From a virus, in IMG/VR virus record IMGVR_UViG_3300025151_000065, positions 1-46,540 of that record: a stretch of DNA of 46,540 nucleotides; one strand, written 5' to 3'. Shown here piece by piece: positions 23,773-46,540 of this stretch. The first letter of the stretch is position 1, and every line of letters begins with the position of its first letter. The notes beneath the pieces are model-generated. The model had not been told where the DNA came from and did no database searches. It was given only the letters and a program-made list of their open reading frames with translations. The position numbers and the translations under genes are program-made.

Positions 23773-25215
23773 ATGAAATATAAGTTTAAAACGGAGCCGT
23801 ACGAGCATCAGCTTGAGGCGTTGAAAAGATCATGGGATAAGAAAGAATATGCTTATTTCATGGAAATGGGAACAGGTAAATCTAAAGTACTTGTTGATAA
23901 TATAGCTGTACTCTACGACAGAGGAGCTATCAACGCCGCTGTAATAATCGCACCGAAAGGCGTATATAAGAACTGGTCGGAACGTGAGATACCAACCCAT
24001 ATGCCCGAACATATAATAAGGCGTATAGGCGTATGGAACCCTGCACCAAATAAAAAAGAAAAATTACAGCTTACAAAGTTATTCGAAGTTACAGACGATT
24101 TAAAGATATTAGTTATTAACGTAGAAGCCTTTAGTACTAAGAAGGGTGTGGCGTTTGTAGAAAAGTTTTTACTAACTCATAACGCCATGATGGCAGTTGA
24201 TGAATCTACCACAATAAAGAACCCGAAAGCACAACGGACAAAGAACCTCGTTAAGTTGGCATTACAAAGCAAATACAGACGTATTTTAACAGGTTTTCCT
24301 GTTACCCAATCACCACTAGACCTATACAGTCAATCAGAGTTCCTATGCGCTCAGTTGCTCGGCTATTCGTCATTCTATACGTTTCAAAATCATTACGCGA
24401 AAGTAATTAATAGAAGCATGGGGCAGAGAACTTTTAGACAAGTGGTCGGTTATCAAAACTTAGACGAACTATCTGATAAGGTATCTACGTTTTCGTACCG
24501 TGTCCTTAAGAAAGAATGTTTAGATTTACCTGATAAGGTGTATCAAAAAAGAGAAGTAGAACTTACACCTGAACAAAAGAAAATATATAACCAAATAAAA
24601 GACTATGCTATCGCGGAACTTGAATCGAATGAAATAGTTAGCGTTAGCTCGGTTCTAACTCAGATATTAAGGTTACACCAAGTTACTTGTGGTTTTGTAA
24701 AACATGACCAAGGTGAAGAAATAGAAATTAAAAACAATCGATTAGAAGAATTATTAAAAGTATTGGAAGAAATACAGGGTAAAACAATTATATGGGCTAA
24801 TTACCAATACGATATAAAACGTATTTTAAATACTCTTAACGATATTGTAGGAACTGATGCGGTAGCTACCTATTATGGAGGTACGCCAGAGGAGGAACGA
24901 CAGCCTATTATCGATAGGTTTCAAGATCCCAACTCTAGCTTACAATATCTAATAAGTAATACTCAAACAGGTGGTTACGGAATCACATTACACCAAGCTA
25001 GTAACGTTGTTTATTACAGCAATAATTACGATTTAGAAAAAAGATTACAATCAGAAGACAGGGCGCACCGTATCGGACAGGTTAATAAAGTAACTTATAT
25101 TGATTTGATATCGAAAGATACAGTTGATGAAAAAATTGTGAAAGCTCTGCGGAACAAGCTCAACCTAGCACAAGAGGTGCTAGGTGATGATAAATGGAAA
25201 GATTGGATCGGTTAA
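23773..25215 (+). CDS. SNF2-like superfamily 2 DNA helicase
   Basis: A 480-residue helicase and the only plus-strand gene of the window. Walker A is GTGKS at residues 33-37, motif II AVDES (143-145), motif III LTGFPVTQSP, and late motifs SNTQTGGYGITLHQASNVVY and SEDRAHRIGQ (V and VI). These define a compact SNF2/Rad54-like ATPase without the extra domains. Phage versions are thought to act in replication or recombination. It converges on 25212-25691, whose stop codon overlaps its own (shared TTAA), so no terminator fits between them. The upstream 300 bases carry the GAGAGGGCACGAG element. Confidence 0.93.
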   Translation: MKYKFKTEPYEHQLEALKRSWDKKEYAYFMEMGTGKSKVLVDNIAVLYDRGAINAAVIIAPKGVYKNWSEREIPTHMPEHIIRRIGVWNPAPNKKEKLQLTKLFEVTDDLKILVINVEAFSTKKGVAFVEKFLLTHNAMMAVDESTTIKNPKAQRTKNLVKLALQSKYRRILTGFPVTQSPLDLYSQSEFLCAQLLGYSSFYTFQNHYAKVINRSMGQRTFRQVVGYQNLDELSDKVSTFSYRVLKKECLDLPDKVYQKREVELTPEQKKIYNQIKDYAIAELESNEIVSVSSVLTQILRLHQVTCGFVKHDQGEEIEIKNNRLEELLKVLEEIQGKTIIWANYQYDIKRILNTLNDIVGTDAVATYYGGTPEEERQPIIDRFQDPNSSLQYLISNTQTGGYGITLHQASNVVYYSNNYDLEKRLQSEDRAHRIGQVNKVTYIDLISKDTVDEKIVKALRNKLNLAQEVLGDDKWKDWIG

Positions 25216-34580: not shown

Positions 34581-34928
34581 TTACTCTGCTAATGGGTTTT
34601 TATCTTTATTTTCTAATTTTTCTAGGTCTACTTGAATACGTTCAACACTAAGTGTTAAGCCAGCTATACTAGCTTTTAGGTCGCTGTTATCTGGTATAAC
34701 CATGCTATCTATTGATTTATTAATATATTCAACTGAAGTTTCTATTGCAGCAAATCTTTCCTCAATTATTTTTTGAGCGTCTTCTGTATCTCCAATACCT
34801 CCTATCTGCGCTTCAAGGTTTTCTAACCTATTAACATAAGTAGCTCCTGTATAGCCAAACCCCGCTAGGGTTCCAACAATACCAACTAAAGCTATTAGTT
34901 GTGTAGTTTTATTTTCGAACCATTCCAT
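34581..34928 (-). CDS. N-anchored coiled-coil protein
   Basis: A 115-residue protein with a single N-terminal transmembrane helix (LIALVGIVGTLAGFGYTGAT) and a predicted coiled coil behind it (KLENKDKNP at the end). The architecture resembles a small spanin or i-spanin-like or holin-associated protein, and it lies in the lysis and secreted-protein region. No family match is recognised. Confidence 0.55.
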   Translation of the reverse strand: MEWFENKTTQLIALVGIVGTLAGFGYTGATYVNRLENLEAQIGGIGDTEDAQKIIEERFAAIETSVEYINKSIDSMVIPDNSDLKASIAGLTLSVERIQVDLEKLENKDKNPLAE

Positions 34929-34937
34929 AAAAAACTC

Positions 34938-37079
34938 CTATAAATTTGGTTGTAATTGTATCATTTCACTTAATGTATTATAACTTTCTGTAGAAAGCCC
35001 GTAAAAGGCTTGATTATTGTCGTTAATCACCGCATCGGCATAGATATCTCTAGGGGTATACCACTCACTTTGTTTAGGCATTTCATAGCCTTTGTAAGCT
35101 TCAAAAGCTGGAACATACCCCAGATAAGCAACTAATGTTGATTGATCAGCATATTCTCCTGTTTCTTGTGCTTCTTCTTGCAGTTCTTCTTGTTGTTCTT
35201 CGATATTATTAGCAATAATTTGATCTGCTATTTGATCCGCTTCGCTTTGTGTCATTGCACCAGATACTGCTGTATCAATTTCACCCTGCATATTTTGTAC
35301 TTGTACTTCTGCCATGACTACCTGTGGGCTAGAATCTAGTGTAGCTAATGGTGTAATAATTGTAGTTACGCTTTGCGTTTGACCACTACTTACATCGTCT
35401 GTGGCTGTGTTTAAAGATAGCACCATATTATTTTGTGCATTGGCTGAAGTTATCTGCTCTGACATACTTGGTGAATTACTGGTACTAATTCCTGATGAAG
35501 ATGAAGCGTTGTTATTAGCTACGCTGTTTGTACTGTTAGATGCAGAGGTATTGCTAAAACTGGAAGAAGCTGCGCTTATTGTATTTCTTACTACGTTTAA
35601 CATAGTGGAGGTTATCCCACCCCTACTAGACGTTTCTTCTGCAACCAACTCTTCTGTTTCTTCTTCAAGTTCTTCTATAACTTCTTCATCATTTTCTGCA
35701 ATTTCTATTGTTTCTTCAATTTCTTCTATTATTTCCACAACCTCAACAGGTTCTGATTGTGCTTCTTGTTCTTGTTCTTGTTCTTGTTCTAATTCCTCTC
35801 TAATAATTGTTTCAAATTCAAATAGCTGTATAAGTTCTTCGGTATTTGCTAGTAAATCATTAGTTGTAAAGACTTCTACTAATTCTTCTGCATCAAAAAC
35901 ATCTATAACATTAACACTACTAACTAAAGATATGCTTTCAACGATAGGATCAAAATCATCTATTATTGGATCTACATAAAATTCATCGTCACTAAAATCA
36001 TCGAAATTAAAATTTTCAAACGCCTCTTCTTCGTTAAAATCTTCAAACGGCTCTGTATATAAAATTATTTCGTCCTCTGTTATTTGATATGTTTCTGGTT
36101 CATCAAATCCGTTTTGGGTAATCATAACTGCAAGCACCTCTGGAATATACCCAGAACAAGTTGGGCTGTATTGAGGATCTTGGTCACACTCGTAATCACG
36201 TAAAGCCTCTTCATAACCAGTGCAATCGGTTGAATATAACGAGTCTAAGCCGCATTGTTGAGTTAGGTAAGCAGCGTCATATCCAGTGCAATCGGTTGAA
36301 TATAAAGCGTCTAAATTGCATTGCTGTGTCAAGTAAGCTGCTGCATATCCTGGACAGCTAGAGTCGTTCAAAGAATTACTACAATCAATGCTGTTGCCAC
36401 TACCCAATCCGTATAAACTACCTCCGTTTTCTAAAGTTGTGTTGAACGAGGTGTCATTCCAATTCTGATTTACGCAAGTGCTAGAGTTTGTAGTTCCAGT
36501 ACTGCATTCGTCATGGTATAGATAAGTGTATGAGTTACTTGCATTAGATCCAACCTCACCAATCAAAACATCATGGCTAATAATATCTAGTTCTCTATAA
36601 CGAAAATCAAAAGAGTTATTGTTCCAAAGTATGATTTCAAAGCTGTTATCAGATGCGCGATTATATTCACGCATTTTATACCAACCAAAAATCATCTTGC
36701 TAGAATCACCCCAAGATTTCATACGGGAGTCATTATCTCTAATTAAATCAGTCCAAAAGGGATATAGTGTGTAAGTGTGTTGCCCATTAATAGGGTCTGG
36801 AGTGTAGTCAGAGCAATAGCTACCACTATTGCCAAAATGCAAACAGCCATTTGTTGCCATTCTTGCTTGTGAAAAAGTTGAGCCATAAAAAGTAAAATTA
36901 AAAGAAAGATCAATCGCAGGAGAGATACCATCATCTACAACTTCATACGCTAACTCTCCTTGAAAATTGTTAGCGTTATCGTGTAGGTCGTATAGTGATT
37001 GGTTAGCCTCGTAAGTGTAGTTTGCTTGTAAACTGTTAAACAGTAGTAAACAACTAACTAGCCATAAATTCTTCAACAC
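34938..37079 (-). CDS. Secreted multi-domain protein with NIDO-like domain and Cys repeats
   Basis: A 713-residue protein with a Sec signal peptide (MLKNLWLVSCLLLFNSLQA, cleavage expected after LQA). Residues of about 50-190 look like a nidogen-type (NIDO) domain: SFNFTFYGSTFSQARMATNG, YPFWTDL, and the FEIILWNNNSFDF region. Then three 22-residue repeats of pattern CxGYxxAYLTQQCxLDxLYS (third degenerate), an acidic Glu-rich low-complexity stretch, and a Ser/Asn-rich segment. A phage-encoded exported protein could sit on the host surface or in particles. It overlaps the following gene by 26 bases. Confidence 0.65.
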   Translation of the reverse strand: MLKNLWLVSCLLLFNSLQANYTYEANQSLYDLHDNANNFQGELAYEVVDDGISPAIDLSFNFTFYGSTFSQARMATNGCLHFGNSGSYCSDYTPDPINGQHTYTLYPFWTDLIRDNDSRMKSWGDSSKMIFGWYKMREYNRASDNSFEIILWNNNSFDFRYRELDIISHDVLIGEVGSNASNSYTYLYHDECSTGTTNSSTCVNQNWNDTSFNTTLENGGSLYGLGSGNSIDCSNSLNDSSCPGYAAAYLTQQCNLDALYSTDCTGYDAAYLTQQCGLDSLYSTDCTGYEEALRDYECDQDPQYSPTCSGYIPEVLAVMITQNGFDEPETYQITEDEIILYTEPFEDFNEEEAFENFNFDDFSDDEFYVDPIIDDFDPIVESISLVSSVNVIDVFDAEELVEVFTTNDLLANTEELIQLFEFETIIREELEQEQEQEQEAQSEPVEVVEIIEEIEETIEIAENDEEVIEELEEETEELVAEETSSRGGITSTMLNVVRNTISAASSSFSNTSASNSTNSVANNNASSSSGISTSNSPSMSEQITSANAQNNMVLSLNTATDDVSSGQTQSVTTIITPLATLDSSPQVVMAEVQVQNMQGEIDTAVSGAMTQSEADQIADQIIANNIEEQQEELQEEAQETGEYADQSTLVAYLGYVPAFEAYKGYEMPKQSEWYTPRDIYADAVINDNNQAFYGLSTESYNTLSEMIQLQPNL

Positions 37080-38085
37080 ACGTTCTTCCTGATTTCTTTT
37101 TACCTTTTGAATTACGAGTAGTTTTACATTTTTTAACGTACTTCGCTTTCAATTCTTCATAGTCAGGTCTATCTAATTTATTTTCTGTCCAAGCTACAGA
37201 TGCTTTTTTCCCAACTTCACCTTTATACGGACATGGTGTACCAGCCATTTCCATGGCTTGAAAAACCCTTGTGTCTTGACAAAGTATAGCTACAGAAGCT
37301 ACTTTCATGCCTGTATCGTATAAGTATTTAGATAGCTTTAATCTTTCACAGTTTTCATCTCTAACTGCCTTGCCTCCTGATAAACCAAAAACCTGTCCTT
37401 GAAAAGCACCTGATACTCCTGTGGTACATAGGTCTTGTGAGTAAGACATAATACTAGGAGCAATAGCAGAAGCAGGGGGAGCGTTTGTTTTAACATTTTG
37501 ATTTATTGTTTGCGTAGTATTTGATTCATTAATATTTCTATTAGTGTTGTCCGATACAGTATTGTTGTTGTTCGTATTTGTGTTGTCTGTTGTTACATTA
37601 GACTCAGATGTTGATTCGTTGTAATTCGTATTTGTACTGTTGTTTGTATTTGTATTTTCTGAAACCGTTGTGTTATTTACATTTTGATTAACCGTTGAAT
37701 TGACCGTAGACGTTGACGTATTAACGTTTGTATTAGTGTTGTTTGTTGTTGCAGTAGTTGTTGCAGTAGTTGTGTTTACGTTGGTGTTGTTTGACGTATT
37801 AGTGTTCGTGTTCGTATTTGTATTTGTATTCGTATTTGTGTTTGTATTAGTTGAAGTCGATGTGTTGGTATTTGTATTCGTGTTTGTATTCGTGTTTGTA
37901 TTCGTGTTTGTATTCGTGTTTGTATTCGTGTTTGTATTCGTTGTGGTTGTCGTGTTCGTTGTATCTAAACTGTTTTGTTCACAATATTGTGATCCAGCAG
38001 TACAGTCACCTGTTTGGTCAGCTGTGACGTAAAACGGCAATATAATTAACAAATATATAGGGTATTTTTTGATGTATTTTTTCAT
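37054..38085 (-). CDS. Secreted Thr/Asn-repeat protein
   Basis: A 343-residue protein with a signal peptide (MKKYIKKYPIYLLIILPFYV, likely cut after TA), then about 170 residues of Asn/Thr dipeptide repeats interrupted by short variants. A C-terminal domain of about 140 residues follows with Cys residues and DLCTTGVSGAFQGQVFGLSG, then SVAILCQDTRVFQAMEMAGT. The repeats are encoded by 12-base direct repeats (37873-37932). An extracellular or periplasmic stalk with a globular tip is the likely architecture. It overlaps 34938-37079. Function unknown. Confidence 0.7.
   Translation of the reverse strand: MKKYIKKYPIYLLIILPFYVTADQTGDCTAGSQYCEQNSLDTTNTTTTTNTNTNTNTNTNTNTNTNTNTNTNTNTSTSTNTNTNTNTNTNTNTNTNTSNNTNVNTTTATTTATTNNTNTNVNTSTSTVNSTVNQNVNNTTVSENTNTNNSTNTNYNESTSESNVTTDNTNTNNNNTVSDNTNRNINESNTTQTINQNVKTNAPPASAIAPSIMSYSQDLCTTGVSGAFQGQVFGLSGGKAVRDENCERLKLSKYLYDTGMKVASVAILCQDTRVFQAMEMAGTPCPYKGEVGKKASVAWTENKLDRPDYEELKAKYVKKCKTTRNSKGKKKSGRTCVEEFMAS
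37873..37932 (-). repeat. Five perfect 12-bp tandem repeats
   Basis: Unit TGTATTCGTGTT on the plus strand, repeated five times without change, with degenerate copies continuing on both sides (about 37800-37960). Each unit encodes four residues of the Asn/Thr tract. Slippage here would alter the tract length in steps of four residues without breaking the frame. Confidence 0.9.
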
Positions 38086-38561
38086 TAATCCGACTTATTT
38101 GAGGCGCCGAAATAAAAACTTATAACAGCACTAGCTAACCCACCAAGGTAGCCGAGTACAAGATTTATTAAAGCCTCTGAGTTTTGTTCAGGGGGCTGAA
38201 GGGTAACTAAAAATATATATCCCATAAACCCACCAACCACAGATACACCTACGATTCGAGCTGTCCAGTCTCTACTAAACGTCTTTCTAGCATCTTGAGT
38301 GTCCGCCACTTCTAGCTTAAACACATCTACATCAAGTTCTTTCATCCGTATTTCAAAGTCTTTTTCTGCTTTTTTAAGTTGTAGCATCTGTTCAGGCGTA
38401 GCATCCTCTATAGCTTTTTCGATCGCTTTAGGGTTATTTGGTACTCCTAACACCTCTGAAATCATATTAGCCGCTATTCCGCCCATTGGACCTCCAAGAG
38501 CAGTTCCTAATGTAGGAGCTACTGCTCCTACTACATTTTTTAATAATCCACCTATTTTCAT
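38085..38561 (-). CDS. 3TM holin-like protein (GTA_holin_3TM type)
   Basis: A 158-residue protein. N-terminal Gly/Ala-rich hydrophobic segment (VVGAVAPTLGTALGGPMGGI), a charged linker with KKAEKDFEIRMKELDVDVFK and RDWTARIVG, then two further hydrophobic segments and a short SFYFGASNKSD end. This arrangement resembles the holin of phages and gene transfer agents (holin_3TM family). It would form membrane lesions for lysis. It is next to the secreted proteins and near lysozyme at 40274-40717. Confidence 0.75.
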   Translation of the reverse strand: MKIGGLLKNVVGAVAPTLGTALGGPMGGIAANMISEVLGVPNNPKAIEKAIEDATPEQMLQLKKAEKDFEIRMKELDVDVFKLEVADTQDARKTFSRDWTARIVGVSVVGGFMGYIFLVTLQPPEQNSEALINLVLGYLGGLASAVISFYFGASNKSD

Positions 38562-38987: not shown

Positions 38988-39287
38988 CTAACACTTCCAT
39001 CTTTTACGAGCTTGCCGTAGTCTCGAGTTAGGGTTTTTTGCGGCTTTAGGAAACTTTTTCATCTGACCTGCAGAACGTGCACAATAAGACTTACGTCTTT
39101 TTGCTGCTTTACTGCCTTTTTTAACTTTACCTGTAACAGCTGTTTTAAGTTTAGATCCAGGGTTTTTCTTTCTATAGGCTTTTACACCTTTTTTGGTCAT
39201 ACCTGCCCCACTTTTCGTAGGTCGATAATTAGCGCCCTTTCCTTTTGTAGTGCGCTTTATAGGTTTTTCCTTACGTTTTTTTGCCAC
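38988..39287 (-). CDS. Very basic small protein, DUF6321-like
   Basis: A 99-residue Lys/Arg-rich protein with GMTKKGVKAYRKKNPGSKLK, then KRRKSYCARSAGQMKKFPKA and a C-terminal LRQARKRWKC. The pattern GmT.kGV.aYr.kNPGSkLktAV...skaakRRKSyCARs.GM is a recurring family in marine phages, uncharacterised. With three other very basic small genes nearby, a DNA-neutralising or virion role is a reasonable guess. Confidence 0.7.
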   Translation of the reverse strand: MAKKRKEKPIKRTTKGKGANYRPTKSGAGMTKKGVKAYRKKNPGSKLKTAVTGKVKKGSKAAKRRKSYCARSAGQMKKFPKAAKNPNSRLRQARKRWKC

Positions 39288-39478
39288 TATTTTTTCTTAG
39301 TTTTCTTTTTAATCTTCTTAGCAGTTTTAGCAGAACGTCTAAAGTCAGCAGCTGTAGGTGCTCCTTTGGCTCCTTTTTTACGAGGTTTTCTGCCCTCTTT
39401 ACGTTTTTTATTAATATTATAATAAAGACCTTTTTTAGCTGTTCTGCCGTCTTTAGTTTTATGTGTCTTTTTTGCCAT
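39287..39478 (-). CDS. Very basic small protein
   Basis: A 63-residue protein starting MAKKTHKTKDGRTAKKGLYY, with NINKKRKEGRKPRKKG and a Lys-rich end. The RTAKKGLYYNINKKRKEG motif recurs in small basic proteins of marine phages. Adjacent to 38988-39287 (shared end base), suggesting cotranslation. Function unknown. Confidence 0.65.
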   Translation of the reverse strand: MAKKTHKTKDGRTAKKGLYYNINKKRKEGRKPRKKGAKGAPTAADFRRSAKTAKKIKKKTKKK

Positions 39479-40155
39479 TACTCCTCCTGATATAAGTTAT
39501 TAAAAGTTATACTGGGGTCTAAATAACTTTCATGACCTTCTGCAGAATGCAGTGTTTGTGAAGGAGTAAAATCTGGTGCTCCTTCTCCAGTAACCCACAA
39601 AGCAGGGCTTGTTGCTCTTACTCGATTATTCGGTAATGCAACTAAGTTACCTTTCCATTCACAATCTTCTGTTATATATAAAACATGAGACTGCTTATGT
39701 TGTGCAGGACAATCCGCTATTTCGTTGTTTGTATAGTCTACAGTAAACATATATTTACCAGTATAAAACTTTCCATCTATTTTGCAAAGCCACGGACTAG
39801 AACTAACTCTATCCATAACGATTACAGAATGATCTCTTGATTCACAATCCCAAGGTTGAGCTATATGGTCTTCCATAGGCTCTCCCCACTCTTCTAAAGG
39901 AATATCGGCTACTAAACCTTGTATCGGCATTCTTGCCCACATAGCTCCGCCATGAATATTACCCTCTTCCCAATCGTCGTATTCTGTTTCACAACCTGTA
40001 AACACAACTTGAAAACTTAACGAACGGTCAGGAATAGTATTAACAGCGAACGCAATAGCATGCAAAAATTCTCCGTGGTAGTTACTATGATTAGCAGTAA
40101 ATTCCCTTCTCACCCAACATTTAAAATGTGGAATATTGCTAATTAAATGAGCCAC
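39478..40155 (-). CDS. Conserved phage hypothetical protein
   Basis: A 225-residue protein starting MAHLISNIPHFKCWVRREFT, with ETEYDDWEEGNIHGGAMWAR, WARMPIQGLV, and a late GNLVALPNNRVRATSPALW. The same order is found in marine phage genomes without known function. The tail end overlaps the 39287 gene start. It lies beside the lysis genes; a structural role is possible. Confidence 0.6.
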   Translation of the reverse strand: MAHLISNIPHFKCWVRREFTANHSNYHGEFLHAIAFAVNTIPDRSLSFQVVFTGCETEYDDWEEGNIHGGAMWARMPIQGLVADIPLEEWGEPMEDHIAQPWDCESRDHSVIVMDRVSSSPWLCKIDGKFYTGKYMFTVDYTNNEIADCPAQHKQSHVLYITEDCEWKGNLVALPNNRVRATSPALWVTGEGAPDFTPSQTLHSAEGHESYLDPSITFNNLYQEE

Positions 40156-44327: not shown

Positions 44328-46540
44328 TTACTCCTTGTTTTCTAATTCTTCAACTCTTGCCGAAAGTTCTTGTACTGCCTTAACCATTAAAGGCATCAAA
44401 GACGCTTCACCAATACGTTGTCTACCATCAGCTTCATCTTCTGTCCACATATCAAAGCCATCTTTTAAGTCGTATCTGTCAATAACTTCCTTGACTTCTT
44501 GTGCTATAAAACCATGATTGTACTTACCATTCATAACTCTTTTTTCAGACTCAGGATTATGTGCCTTCATTTCTGATGGTACGTCTTTAGCTTTTTTCCA
44601 TCTAAAAGTTACTGGTCTTAATTCATTTATAAAGTCTAGTCCAATCTTTTCATCCTCTATATCTTCTTTTAATCTTATATCAGAAGGTGCTGTTATTGTA
44701 GTAGCACCAAAAGCTATATTAGAGTCAGTAGTTCCATCACCAAATGTAAAATTACTATTACCTGAACAAGTTACGTTTTGCCCCATTGCGATTTGATTAC
44801 CACCGCTAGTAGATGAAAGAGAAGTATCTGTTCCTATGCAAATATTTTGACTGCCAGTAACTAGGTTGTCAGCAGCATTTGAACCTATCACAACATTATC
44901 GTTACCAGTTGTTAAAAGGTCTGCTGCAACTTTACCAAGACCTACGTTCCTTGTACCTGTTGTAACAGTATCTAATGCAGCTTTACCGACAGCAACATTA
45001 TCTGCTGCTGTTGTAAGACTGCCCAACGATTCTCTACCTATGGCTACGTTAAAGTTTCCAGTCGTATTAATTTTTAACGCTTCTTGACCCATCGCTACGT
45101 TACCACTCGATGTCGTAAGATTTTCTCCAGCCAAGTAACCTACTAATGTATTTTCTTCACCACCTGTTAAATCTTTACCAGCACCATATCCTACAGCAGT
45201 ATGTTTTTGACCAGCAATAACAGAGTCTAAAGATAAACTTCCTACTGCGGTGTTGTATGAACCTGTGGTGCATGATAGTAAAGCATTTCTACCCACCCCA
45301 ACATTATCATCTGCTGTGGTGTTTGCTGTCATAGCATTAACACCTACTGCTGTGTTGTTAGTACCTGTGGTGTTTGCTTGTAAAGTAAAATAACCAACTG
45401 CTGTATTATCAGAAGCTGTCGTGCTTGTTGACAAAGCACTTCTTCCTATGGCTGTGTTGGTTGAACCTGTAGTGTTTTCTGTTAATGCACCCCAACCTAG
45501 AGCAACATTATTATCGGCTGTGGTATTGTCTTCCAAAGCCCTTCGACCAACTGCGGTGTTATAGTTTCCTGTTGTATTTGAATTTAATGCTTTCGCACCC
45601 ACCGCAGTATTCTCTGAACCTGTAGTATTTGATTCTAAAGAATCTCTGCCCAAAGCAACATTACTTGCACCTGTTGTATTAGTATATAGTGCAGAACTTC
45701 CTAAAGCGGTGTTGTAACTACCTGTCGTATTGTTTAATAAAGCACTCCAGCCTACTCCTACATTTTGTGTTCCTGTTGTGTTAGCAGATAAAGCCTGATA
45801 ACCAACTGCAACATGGTAAGAAGCATCAGTTAAGGCATCTAAAGCAAATGAACCTACTGCAACATTATTAGTACCTGTTGTTAATGCTTGTAAAGCATCG
45901 TTACCAAAAGCTTCATTAGAACTTGCTGTAGTTAAAGAACTTAATGCTTTGTGTCCAACACCTGTGTTATTACCTCCTGTGGTTGCAGCATCTCCTGCTC
46001 TTTCACCTACAAATACGTTTTCTACACCTGTTGTTAAAACTTTACCAGCTTCTTTACCAACAACTGTATTACTGTGACCTGTGGTTGCTGCTTGTAGAGC
46101 ATAATAACCAACTGCTGTGTTGTCAGTAGCAGTTGTTGCAGTTTGTAAAGCATTTGCACCGACTGCAACATTAGTTGAACCTGTAGTGTTTGCCTCTAAC
46201 GCTCCCTTACCTACCGCAGTATTGTATTGTCCTGTAGTTGTTGCTGCTAAACTAAACGCACCTATTGCTACGTTTTCATCACCTGTTGTTAAAGCTGCAA
46301 AAATATCTACACCTAAACCTGTATTGTAGTTAGCAGCATCTATAGTACCAGTCGCATTATCTCCTATCATAAGAGAGCCTGTTCCAAAAGTTTTACTGGT
46401 TATTCCATTATAGCTTGCTGCTGTAGAGGCTCCTGTTGTAGCTAAATCTCCACCAATAGAAACATCATCTGTAACTGTTAAATCATCTTGTACTTTTAAG
46501 TCTACTGTAGAAAGACTTGCAAAAGCGTCAACTACTGCTG
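44328..46540 (-). CDS. Tail fibre with 17-residue repeats and S74 chaperone, 5' end missing
   Basis: The frame is open to the right edge (ATG 46370 is internal), so the N-terminus is missing; about 737 residues are visible. Roughly 30 tandem 17-residue repeats (NTAVG..AL...TTG.. pattern, from about residue 70 to 560 of the visible part) suggest a beta-roll or trimeric beta-helix shaft like YadA-type adhesins. The C-terminus has the S74 intramolecular chaperone: DIRLKEDIEDEKIGLDFINE, then VTFRWKKA, YNHGFIAQEV and a coiled-coil end. S74 domains cleave themselves off after trimerisation. This is the probable receptor-binding fibre. Confidence 0.93.
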   Translation of the reverse strand, partial: AVVDAFASLSTVDLKVQDDLTVTDDVSIGGDLATTGASTAASYNGITSKTFGTGSLMIGDNATGTIDAANYNTGLGVDIFAALTTGDENVAIGAFSLAATTTGQYNTAVGKGALEANTTGSTNVAVGANALQTATTATDNTAVGYYALQAATTGHSNTVVGKEAGKVLTTGVENVFVGERAGDAATTGGNNTGVGHKALSSLTTASSNEAFGNDALQALTTGTNNVAVGSFALDALTDASYHVAVGYQALSANTTGTQNVGVGWSALLNNTTGSYNTALGSSALYTNTTGASNVALGRDSLESNTTGSENTAVGAKALNSNTTGNYNTAVGRRALEDNTTADNNVALGWGALTENTTGSTNTAIGRSALSTSTTASDNTAVGYFTLQANTTGTNNTAVGVNAMTANTTADDNVGVGRNALLSCTTGSYNTAVGSLSLDSVIAGQKHTAVGYGAGKDLTGGEENTLVGYLAGENLTTSSGNVAMGQEALKINTTGNFNVAIGRESLGSLTTAADNVAVGKAALDTVTTGTRNVGLGKVAADLLTTGNDNVVIGSNAADNLVTGSQNICIGTDTSLSSTSGGNQIAMGQNVTCSGNSNFTFGDGTTDSNIAFGATTITAPSDIRLKEDIEDEKIGLDFINELRPVTFRWKKAKDVPSEMKAHNPESEKRVMNGKYNHGFIAQEVKEVIDRYDLKDGFDMWTEDEADGRQRIGEASLMPLMVKAVQELSARVEELENKE
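44890..46330 (-). repeat. About thirty 51-bp coding repeats in the fibre gene
   Basis: The protein repeat is 17 residues, so the DNA repeats with a 51-base period, diverged at most positions but with conserved N-x-A-V-G and T-T-G codons. Period and length give a shaft of about 500 residues. Recombination between units could change shaft length. Confidence 0.8.

Follow-up and report, generated by a model that had tools for sequence, protein, structure and literature searches.

The closest described counterpart of the locus reported here is the curli (type VIII secretion) module of pelagiphages, a multi-gene exported envelope system of marine phages that is shared by podo- and myoviruses, includes CsgG, CsgF and curlin genes, and has been proposed to serve aggregation ('sibling capture') or defence against superinfection (PMC7029224, PMC9599517, PMC9004378). 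The two-component spanins (Rz/Rz1) provide a second point of reference: the plan of the i-spanin is a single N-terminal transmembrane (TM) helix with a coiled coil, and 91 of 677 phages surveyed had no identified spanin (PMC6139136). Proteins with a carbohydrate-binding domain form a third group, and according to PMC3909814 no identifiable class is more frequent in metaviromic islands. Finally, the gliding adhesin RemA of Flavobacterium johnsoniae and other PF06119 proteins carry an N-terminal NIDO-like domain on an exported protein.

Here we describe a conserved three-gene unit, A-B-C, for which our literature searches returned no description. It lies in the window, by which we mean the whole stretch of 46,540 bases analysed, a virus record with podovirus-like genes for a stabilisation-type protein, an A-family DNA polymerase, helicases and a tail-spike-like protein. 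Compared with phage curli, A-B-C consists of other proteins, has a membrane coiled-coil partner and an exchangeable binding domain, and has no known pore, CsgG being absent from 30 module-bearing records. It shares with Rz/Rz1 the N-terminal TM helix and coiled coil of its C protein and the frequent proximity of lysis genes, whereas it has no lipoprotein partner, its partners are large, no Rz match exceeds the cut-off and the orientation of C is putative. Relative to RemA and the PF06119 proteins, all of B past the NIDO-like domain differs, namely Cys repeats, acidic and Ser/Asn linkers and a phage-specific C-terminal domain. Our preferred reading, to which we assign a probability of roughly 45%, is that the A-B-C proteins would be exported, form a complex in the envelope and present the exchangeable N-terminal domain of B on the infected cell, for adhesion or exclusion.

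Results

Gene B, the middle gene of the unit, is a 713-aa ORF with a GTG start at 34938..37079 on the minus strand, the strand being a detail that the initial annotation of this ORF had omitted. The ORF is real: relatives of B are encoded at 51 viral loci, and dN/dS values are 0.08-0.19 for the gene and 0.05-0.09 for its NIDO part. Because these values indicate purifying selection, gene B is functional and not a chance reading frame, and the 51 viral loci, the same dN/dS range and the variable repeat number argue that its individual parts are not due to chance either. All the parts previously read from the letters (signal peptide, NIDO-like domain, Cys repeats, acidic tract and Ser/Asn linker) were found again, together with a conserved C-terminal domain (residues 577-713) and a third gene at 34581-34928, both of which had been overlooked.

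The product of gene B, all parts of which lie on the minus strand, begins with a signal-peptide-like N-terminus (residues 1-19; 37023..37079), called by a home-made hydropathy, charge and -3,-1 rule and probably cleaved between about LQA and NYTY. The NIDO-like domain (residues 20-232; 36384..37022) shows the strongest conservation within the protein, at 74% mean pairwise identity. It is followed by three 22-residue Cys repeats (residues 244-309; 36153..36350), of which copies 1 and 2 are identical at 19 of 22 positions and copy 3 has diverged to only 8 of 22; by motif count, relatives carry from one to six copies, mostly two or three. Next come two linkers, an acidic low-complexity one (residues about 315-487; 35619..36137) with 35% D+E and 1% K+R, which has 41% mean identity and spans 156-284 aa among relatives, and a Ser/Asn-rich one (residues 488-576; 35352..35618) with 64% S/T/N/Q/G that spans 78-168 aa. 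The C-terminal domain (34941..35351) has 60% mean identity, contains a conserved motif of about WYxPxxIYxxxxIxDN and is homologous across the groups of B proteins described below.

The NIDO-like domain is detectable only through relatives of B and their profile, because the window protein as a direct query returned nothing in Pfam, PHROG or phage tblastn searches, its own copy of the domain falling below the Pfam threshold. PF06119 NIDO was matched by 4 of 21 B relatives (best E=1.4e-5), and the domain profile of the B family found RemA (PDB 8gl6_D; E=1e-9) as the one confident PDB sequence. AF2 predicted a beta-rich core within the domain, with pLDDT mostly 70-83 at residues 50-160; the model of the whole protein is of low confidence (mean pLDDT 43) and gave no match in Foldseek. 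Judged by these profile comparisons, the NIDO assignment of the N-terminal domain holds, and the adhesion-type domain of the initial annotation is real. In the product of a B gene in an Alteromonadales MAG contig (L159:6441-8582), NIDO is followed by about 14 copies, as counted by eye, of a Cys repeat that resembles the window's.

Gene A (37054..38085, minus strand) encodes a 343-aa, apparently exported Thr/Asn-repeat protein with a C-terminal 4-Cys domain. Its Thr/Asn repeat rod (37474..38019, minus strand) varies in length among relatives, and the A domain itself (37150..37473, minus strand), which served as the marker of the module, was modelled by AF2 as a beta-hairpin plus helices (pLDDT 82, pTM 0.63). 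This model had no PDB counterpart in the structure search, and its matches among viruses were mostly uncharacterised relatives, including a distant protein of Achromobacter phage phiAxp-2. The A domain is covered by phrog_20531, a family with no assigned function whose record holds no link to B and C. In phiAxp-2 the distant A-domain protein stands alone (L177:44598-45155) and adjoins an exported Gly/Ser-rich protein (45216-45710). At six alphaproteobacterial loci (L166-L171, mostly Hyphomonadaceae) the A domain ends chromosomal secreted repeat proteins of NGxNG collagen-like or Asn-rich type that are encoded without B or C, and repeat proteins of this kind are a possible cellular source of the domain. 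Gene C (34581..34928, minus strand) encodes a 115-aa coiled-coil protein with a single TM helix predicted by hydropathy (residues 11-29; 34842..34898, minus strand) and a terminal NPLxx motif (Asn-Pro-Leu; 34584..34598, minus strand).

The three genes are tightly linked. In the window, A and B overlap by exactly 26 bases, as had been noted for the Thr/Asn-repeat gene, and nearly all 51 viral B loci have the same neighbours A and C where the contig reaches. A profile scan found the A domain in at least 598 viral stretches, 80 of which were kept, so that the earlier description of B as rare in phages is wrong. Dereplication at 90% left 67 B proteins and 58 complete modules, counts that depend on a longest-ORF heuristic and on the closest relatives and that best describe the family's near neighbourhood. 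The order A-B-C is kept in all 58 complete modules, and both the A/B overlap and a short spacing between B and C recur in 64 of 66 dereplicated modules; co-occurrence of the A/B pair, which the initial annotation had proposed to survey, is thus strongly conserved. When the search was started from C, B lay directly upstream in 39 of 39 non-redundant C loci. The NPL end falls within the last 9 residues of C in 57 of the 58 complete modules, and in the remaining one an inserted IscU-like gene had been picked instead of C, a C-like ORF lying after the insert. By these counts the linkage of A, B and C appears obligate, and the two-protein system originally envisaged has to be extended by C. The inserted gene, which by eye resembles an iron-sulfur scaffold, lies between B and C at L104:7596-8009 in a single phage contig.

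The module reaches well beyond the window and its close relatives. Using A as the query, tblastn returned 11 annotated phage records, and we examined ten of those phage neighbourhoods: the Pelagibacter phages HTVC115P, HTVC202P, HTVC023P, HTVC033P, Baldr and the myophage Mosig, the Roseobacter phages CRP-207 and CRP-810, uvMED S28-C10 and a Manatee Spring phage. Carriers thus include Pelagibacter podo- and myophages as well as Roseobacter phages. Nine of the ten neighbourhoods have A, B and a C-like gene in this order, two of them with small extra ORFs, and eight of these nine phages retain the NPL end; the Manatee Spring phage is without C. The products of CRP-207 gp73 (L059:3292-3873) and CRP-810 gp51 (L060:6162-6584) are annotated as lysozyme and look like C, with a TM helix, a coiled coil and the NPL end.

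What changes among these phages is the N-terminus of B, where NIDO is often swapped for an unrelated domain. The ten phages named above have a B protein with a different N-terminal domain or, in the case of the Roseobacter phages, a B that is itself short and helical, and comparison of NIDO with the N-terminal domain of SAR11-phage B gave no similarity. By contrast, the C proteins of the window group and of the SAR11-phage group are homologous (hhalign probability 98.5), and the C-terminal domain of B can be followed from the NIDO type to the SAR11 type through an intermediate group (hhalign probability 97.4, then 84.8), which is the only connection, as direct comparison of the two types failed. 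An HMM of the B C-terminal domain also matched loci L150, L157 and L159 (E about 1e-7), the first two without NIDO. These comparisons show that B exchanges its N-terminal domain while the rest of the frame is conserved.

Signal-like N-termini, called by a simple rule of hydropathy, charge and cleavage site, were found in 57 of 60 A proteins and 62 of 67 B proteins, compared with 35 of 292 control ORFs, in agreement with the earlier view that B is exported. Cysteines past the N-terminus come in even numbers in almost every B protein. In the A domain, Cys68 and Cys84, the third and fourth of its cysteines, are both present in 106 sequences, both lost in 4 and never lost singly, as expected of a disulfide. 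A lipobox was found in none of 60 A proteins and, spuriously, in one of 67 B proteins, and no outer-membrane anchor was recognised on either protein by this criterion, a result that speaks against display at the cell surface. The charges that flank the TM helix of C leave either orientation possible.

Discussion

Taken together, our analyses lead us to a model in which A-B-C would be exported during infection and assemble across the host envelope. C would sit in the inner membrane, with its coiled coil and NPL end reaching into the periplasm, and the C-terminal domain of B would dock nearby, either directly or through A. The linkers of B, together with the Thr/Asn rod and the putatively disulfide-bonded domain of A, could then bridge the periplasm or the outer layers, so that the infected cell would expose, as the part that binds, the N-terminal domain of B, which is NIDO in this phage and something unrelated in others. 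In this way the module may alter the stickiness of the cell surface, for example to exclude competing phages or to hold neighbouring cells, and would resemble phage curli in its action while being a different system. The sequences themselves show the fixed and linked gene order, the signal-like ends, the pairing of cysteines, the exchange of N-terminal domains and the coiled coil of C; where the proteins reside, whether they form a complex, what is displayed and to what end is what we infer from this pattern, and the display model accounts for the export signals, the disulfides, the long linkers, the membrane partner, the kinship with surface proteins and the exchange of N-terminal domains. 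The initial annotation had suggested a surface system made late in infection for superinfection exclusion or cell aggregation, and A-B-C may be expressed late and act in either way. We also considered masking of receptors by a copied tail-fibre domain and rejected it: in three phages, the N-terminal domain of B had no match in the phage's own tail fibres. In a stronger form of the display model, which we regard as rather doubtful, A-B-C would be a previously unrecognised envelope machine unrelated to curli or spanins and common to phages of several morphotypes and hosts; reaching across the envelope from the inner membrane, it would leave recognition to the infected cell, and not the virion, in order to exclude rivals or capture new hosts.

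The main rival to the display model is a role in lysis, in which A-B-C would take the place of spanins and disrupt the outer membrane in an unusual way, with C acting as an i-spanin-like protein and B and A binding the outer membrane or the glycan layer. C follows the i-spanin plan, a search of 30 records with the module gave no Rz match above the cut-off, and the window encodes no convincing small lipoprotein. Among the genes near the module are those for lysozyme, amidase, peptidase M15 and a holin-like protein with two TM helices, and the frequent position near lysis genes fits a lysis role too and in that respect counts against the display model. However, the missing spanin is not telling, given the share of phages in which none has been identified (PMC6139136), and neither partner of C answers to the definition of an o-spanin, since no A has a lipobox and the one in B is spurious. 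B is also far larger than a known o-spanin, an exchange of recognition domains is not expected in a fusogen, and the module of Mosig has no annotated lysis gene next to it. Only 13 of 58 modules had a recognisable homologue of the window's own lysozyme, which leaves a strict linkage to lysis unsupported, although divergent lysis genes could be missed in such a count. We consider a lysis role unlikely, if still the most serious of the alternatives. Directly upstream of A, the gene at 38085-38561 of the window encodes two C-terminal TM helices and matches phrog_1544 (function not assigned); its product is holin-like by position and hydropathy, and among relatives the gene occurs on either side of the module.

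A second alternative, that B is a virion or receptor-binding component as the earlier 'host recognition' label implies, appears improbable to us. The N-terminal domains of B are of a binding type and the gene lies among structural genes, and the relevant part of PMC3909814 treats the carbohydrate-binding-domain proteins of metaviromic islands as receptor-binding proteins. The B proteins of uvMED S28-C10 and HTVC033P are annotated 'putative carbohydrate binding domain containing protein', the same annotation, and B may be among the 14 genes counted in that part of the paper, which makes no mention of an export signal or of partners A and C. Yet the signal-like N-termini of A and B, their many paired cysteines and the membrane partner C point to export rather than to assembly in the cytoplasm, and the tail fibres do not share the N-terminal domain of B. 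The display model is also in line with such proteins being the commonest identifiable island genes in that account.

Least probable of the rivals is that phage curli include the module or gave rise to it, with A as a curlin-like fibre, for although A is repetitive and Asn/Thr-rich and pelagiphages do carry curli genes, CsgG was absent from all 30 module-bearing records and detected in four of 14 control genomes, neither A nor B matched a curlin family in Pfam or PHROGs (phage curlins being divergent), and at the level searched HTVC008M and Melnitz have CsgG and lack the A domain, the opposite of Mosig. Curli and A-B-C may be mutually exclusive, a pattern that is suggestive only, as few named phages carry curli.

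Returning to the display model, phages as different as those of Pelagibacter and Roseobacter probably place a shared, unstudied protein system in the envelope of the infected cell. The module is a conserved, apparently exported three-gene unit of abundant ocean phages, and its genes, which have no assigned function, currently go under the labels hypothetical, carbohydrate-binding or even lysozyme. If it modifies the surface of the infected cell, phages in dilute seawater would have, next to curli, a second means of changing adhesion or keeping rivals out, and a class of genes now labelled 'hypervariable receptor-binding' would belong to the infected cell instead of the virion. Cultured Pelagibacter and Roseobacter phages are among the carriers, which makes the question testable.

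Further genes of the window deserve a brief mention. Two adjoining small and very Lys/Arg-rich proteins are encoded at 38988-39478, upstream of an SNase-like gene, and one of them matches the C-termini of several PHROGs without assigned function. The gene at 39478-40155, in the late region, matches phrog_3704, which is labelled ferredoxin, and a DNA helicase gene at 23773-25215 lies on the plus strand amid minus-strand genes.
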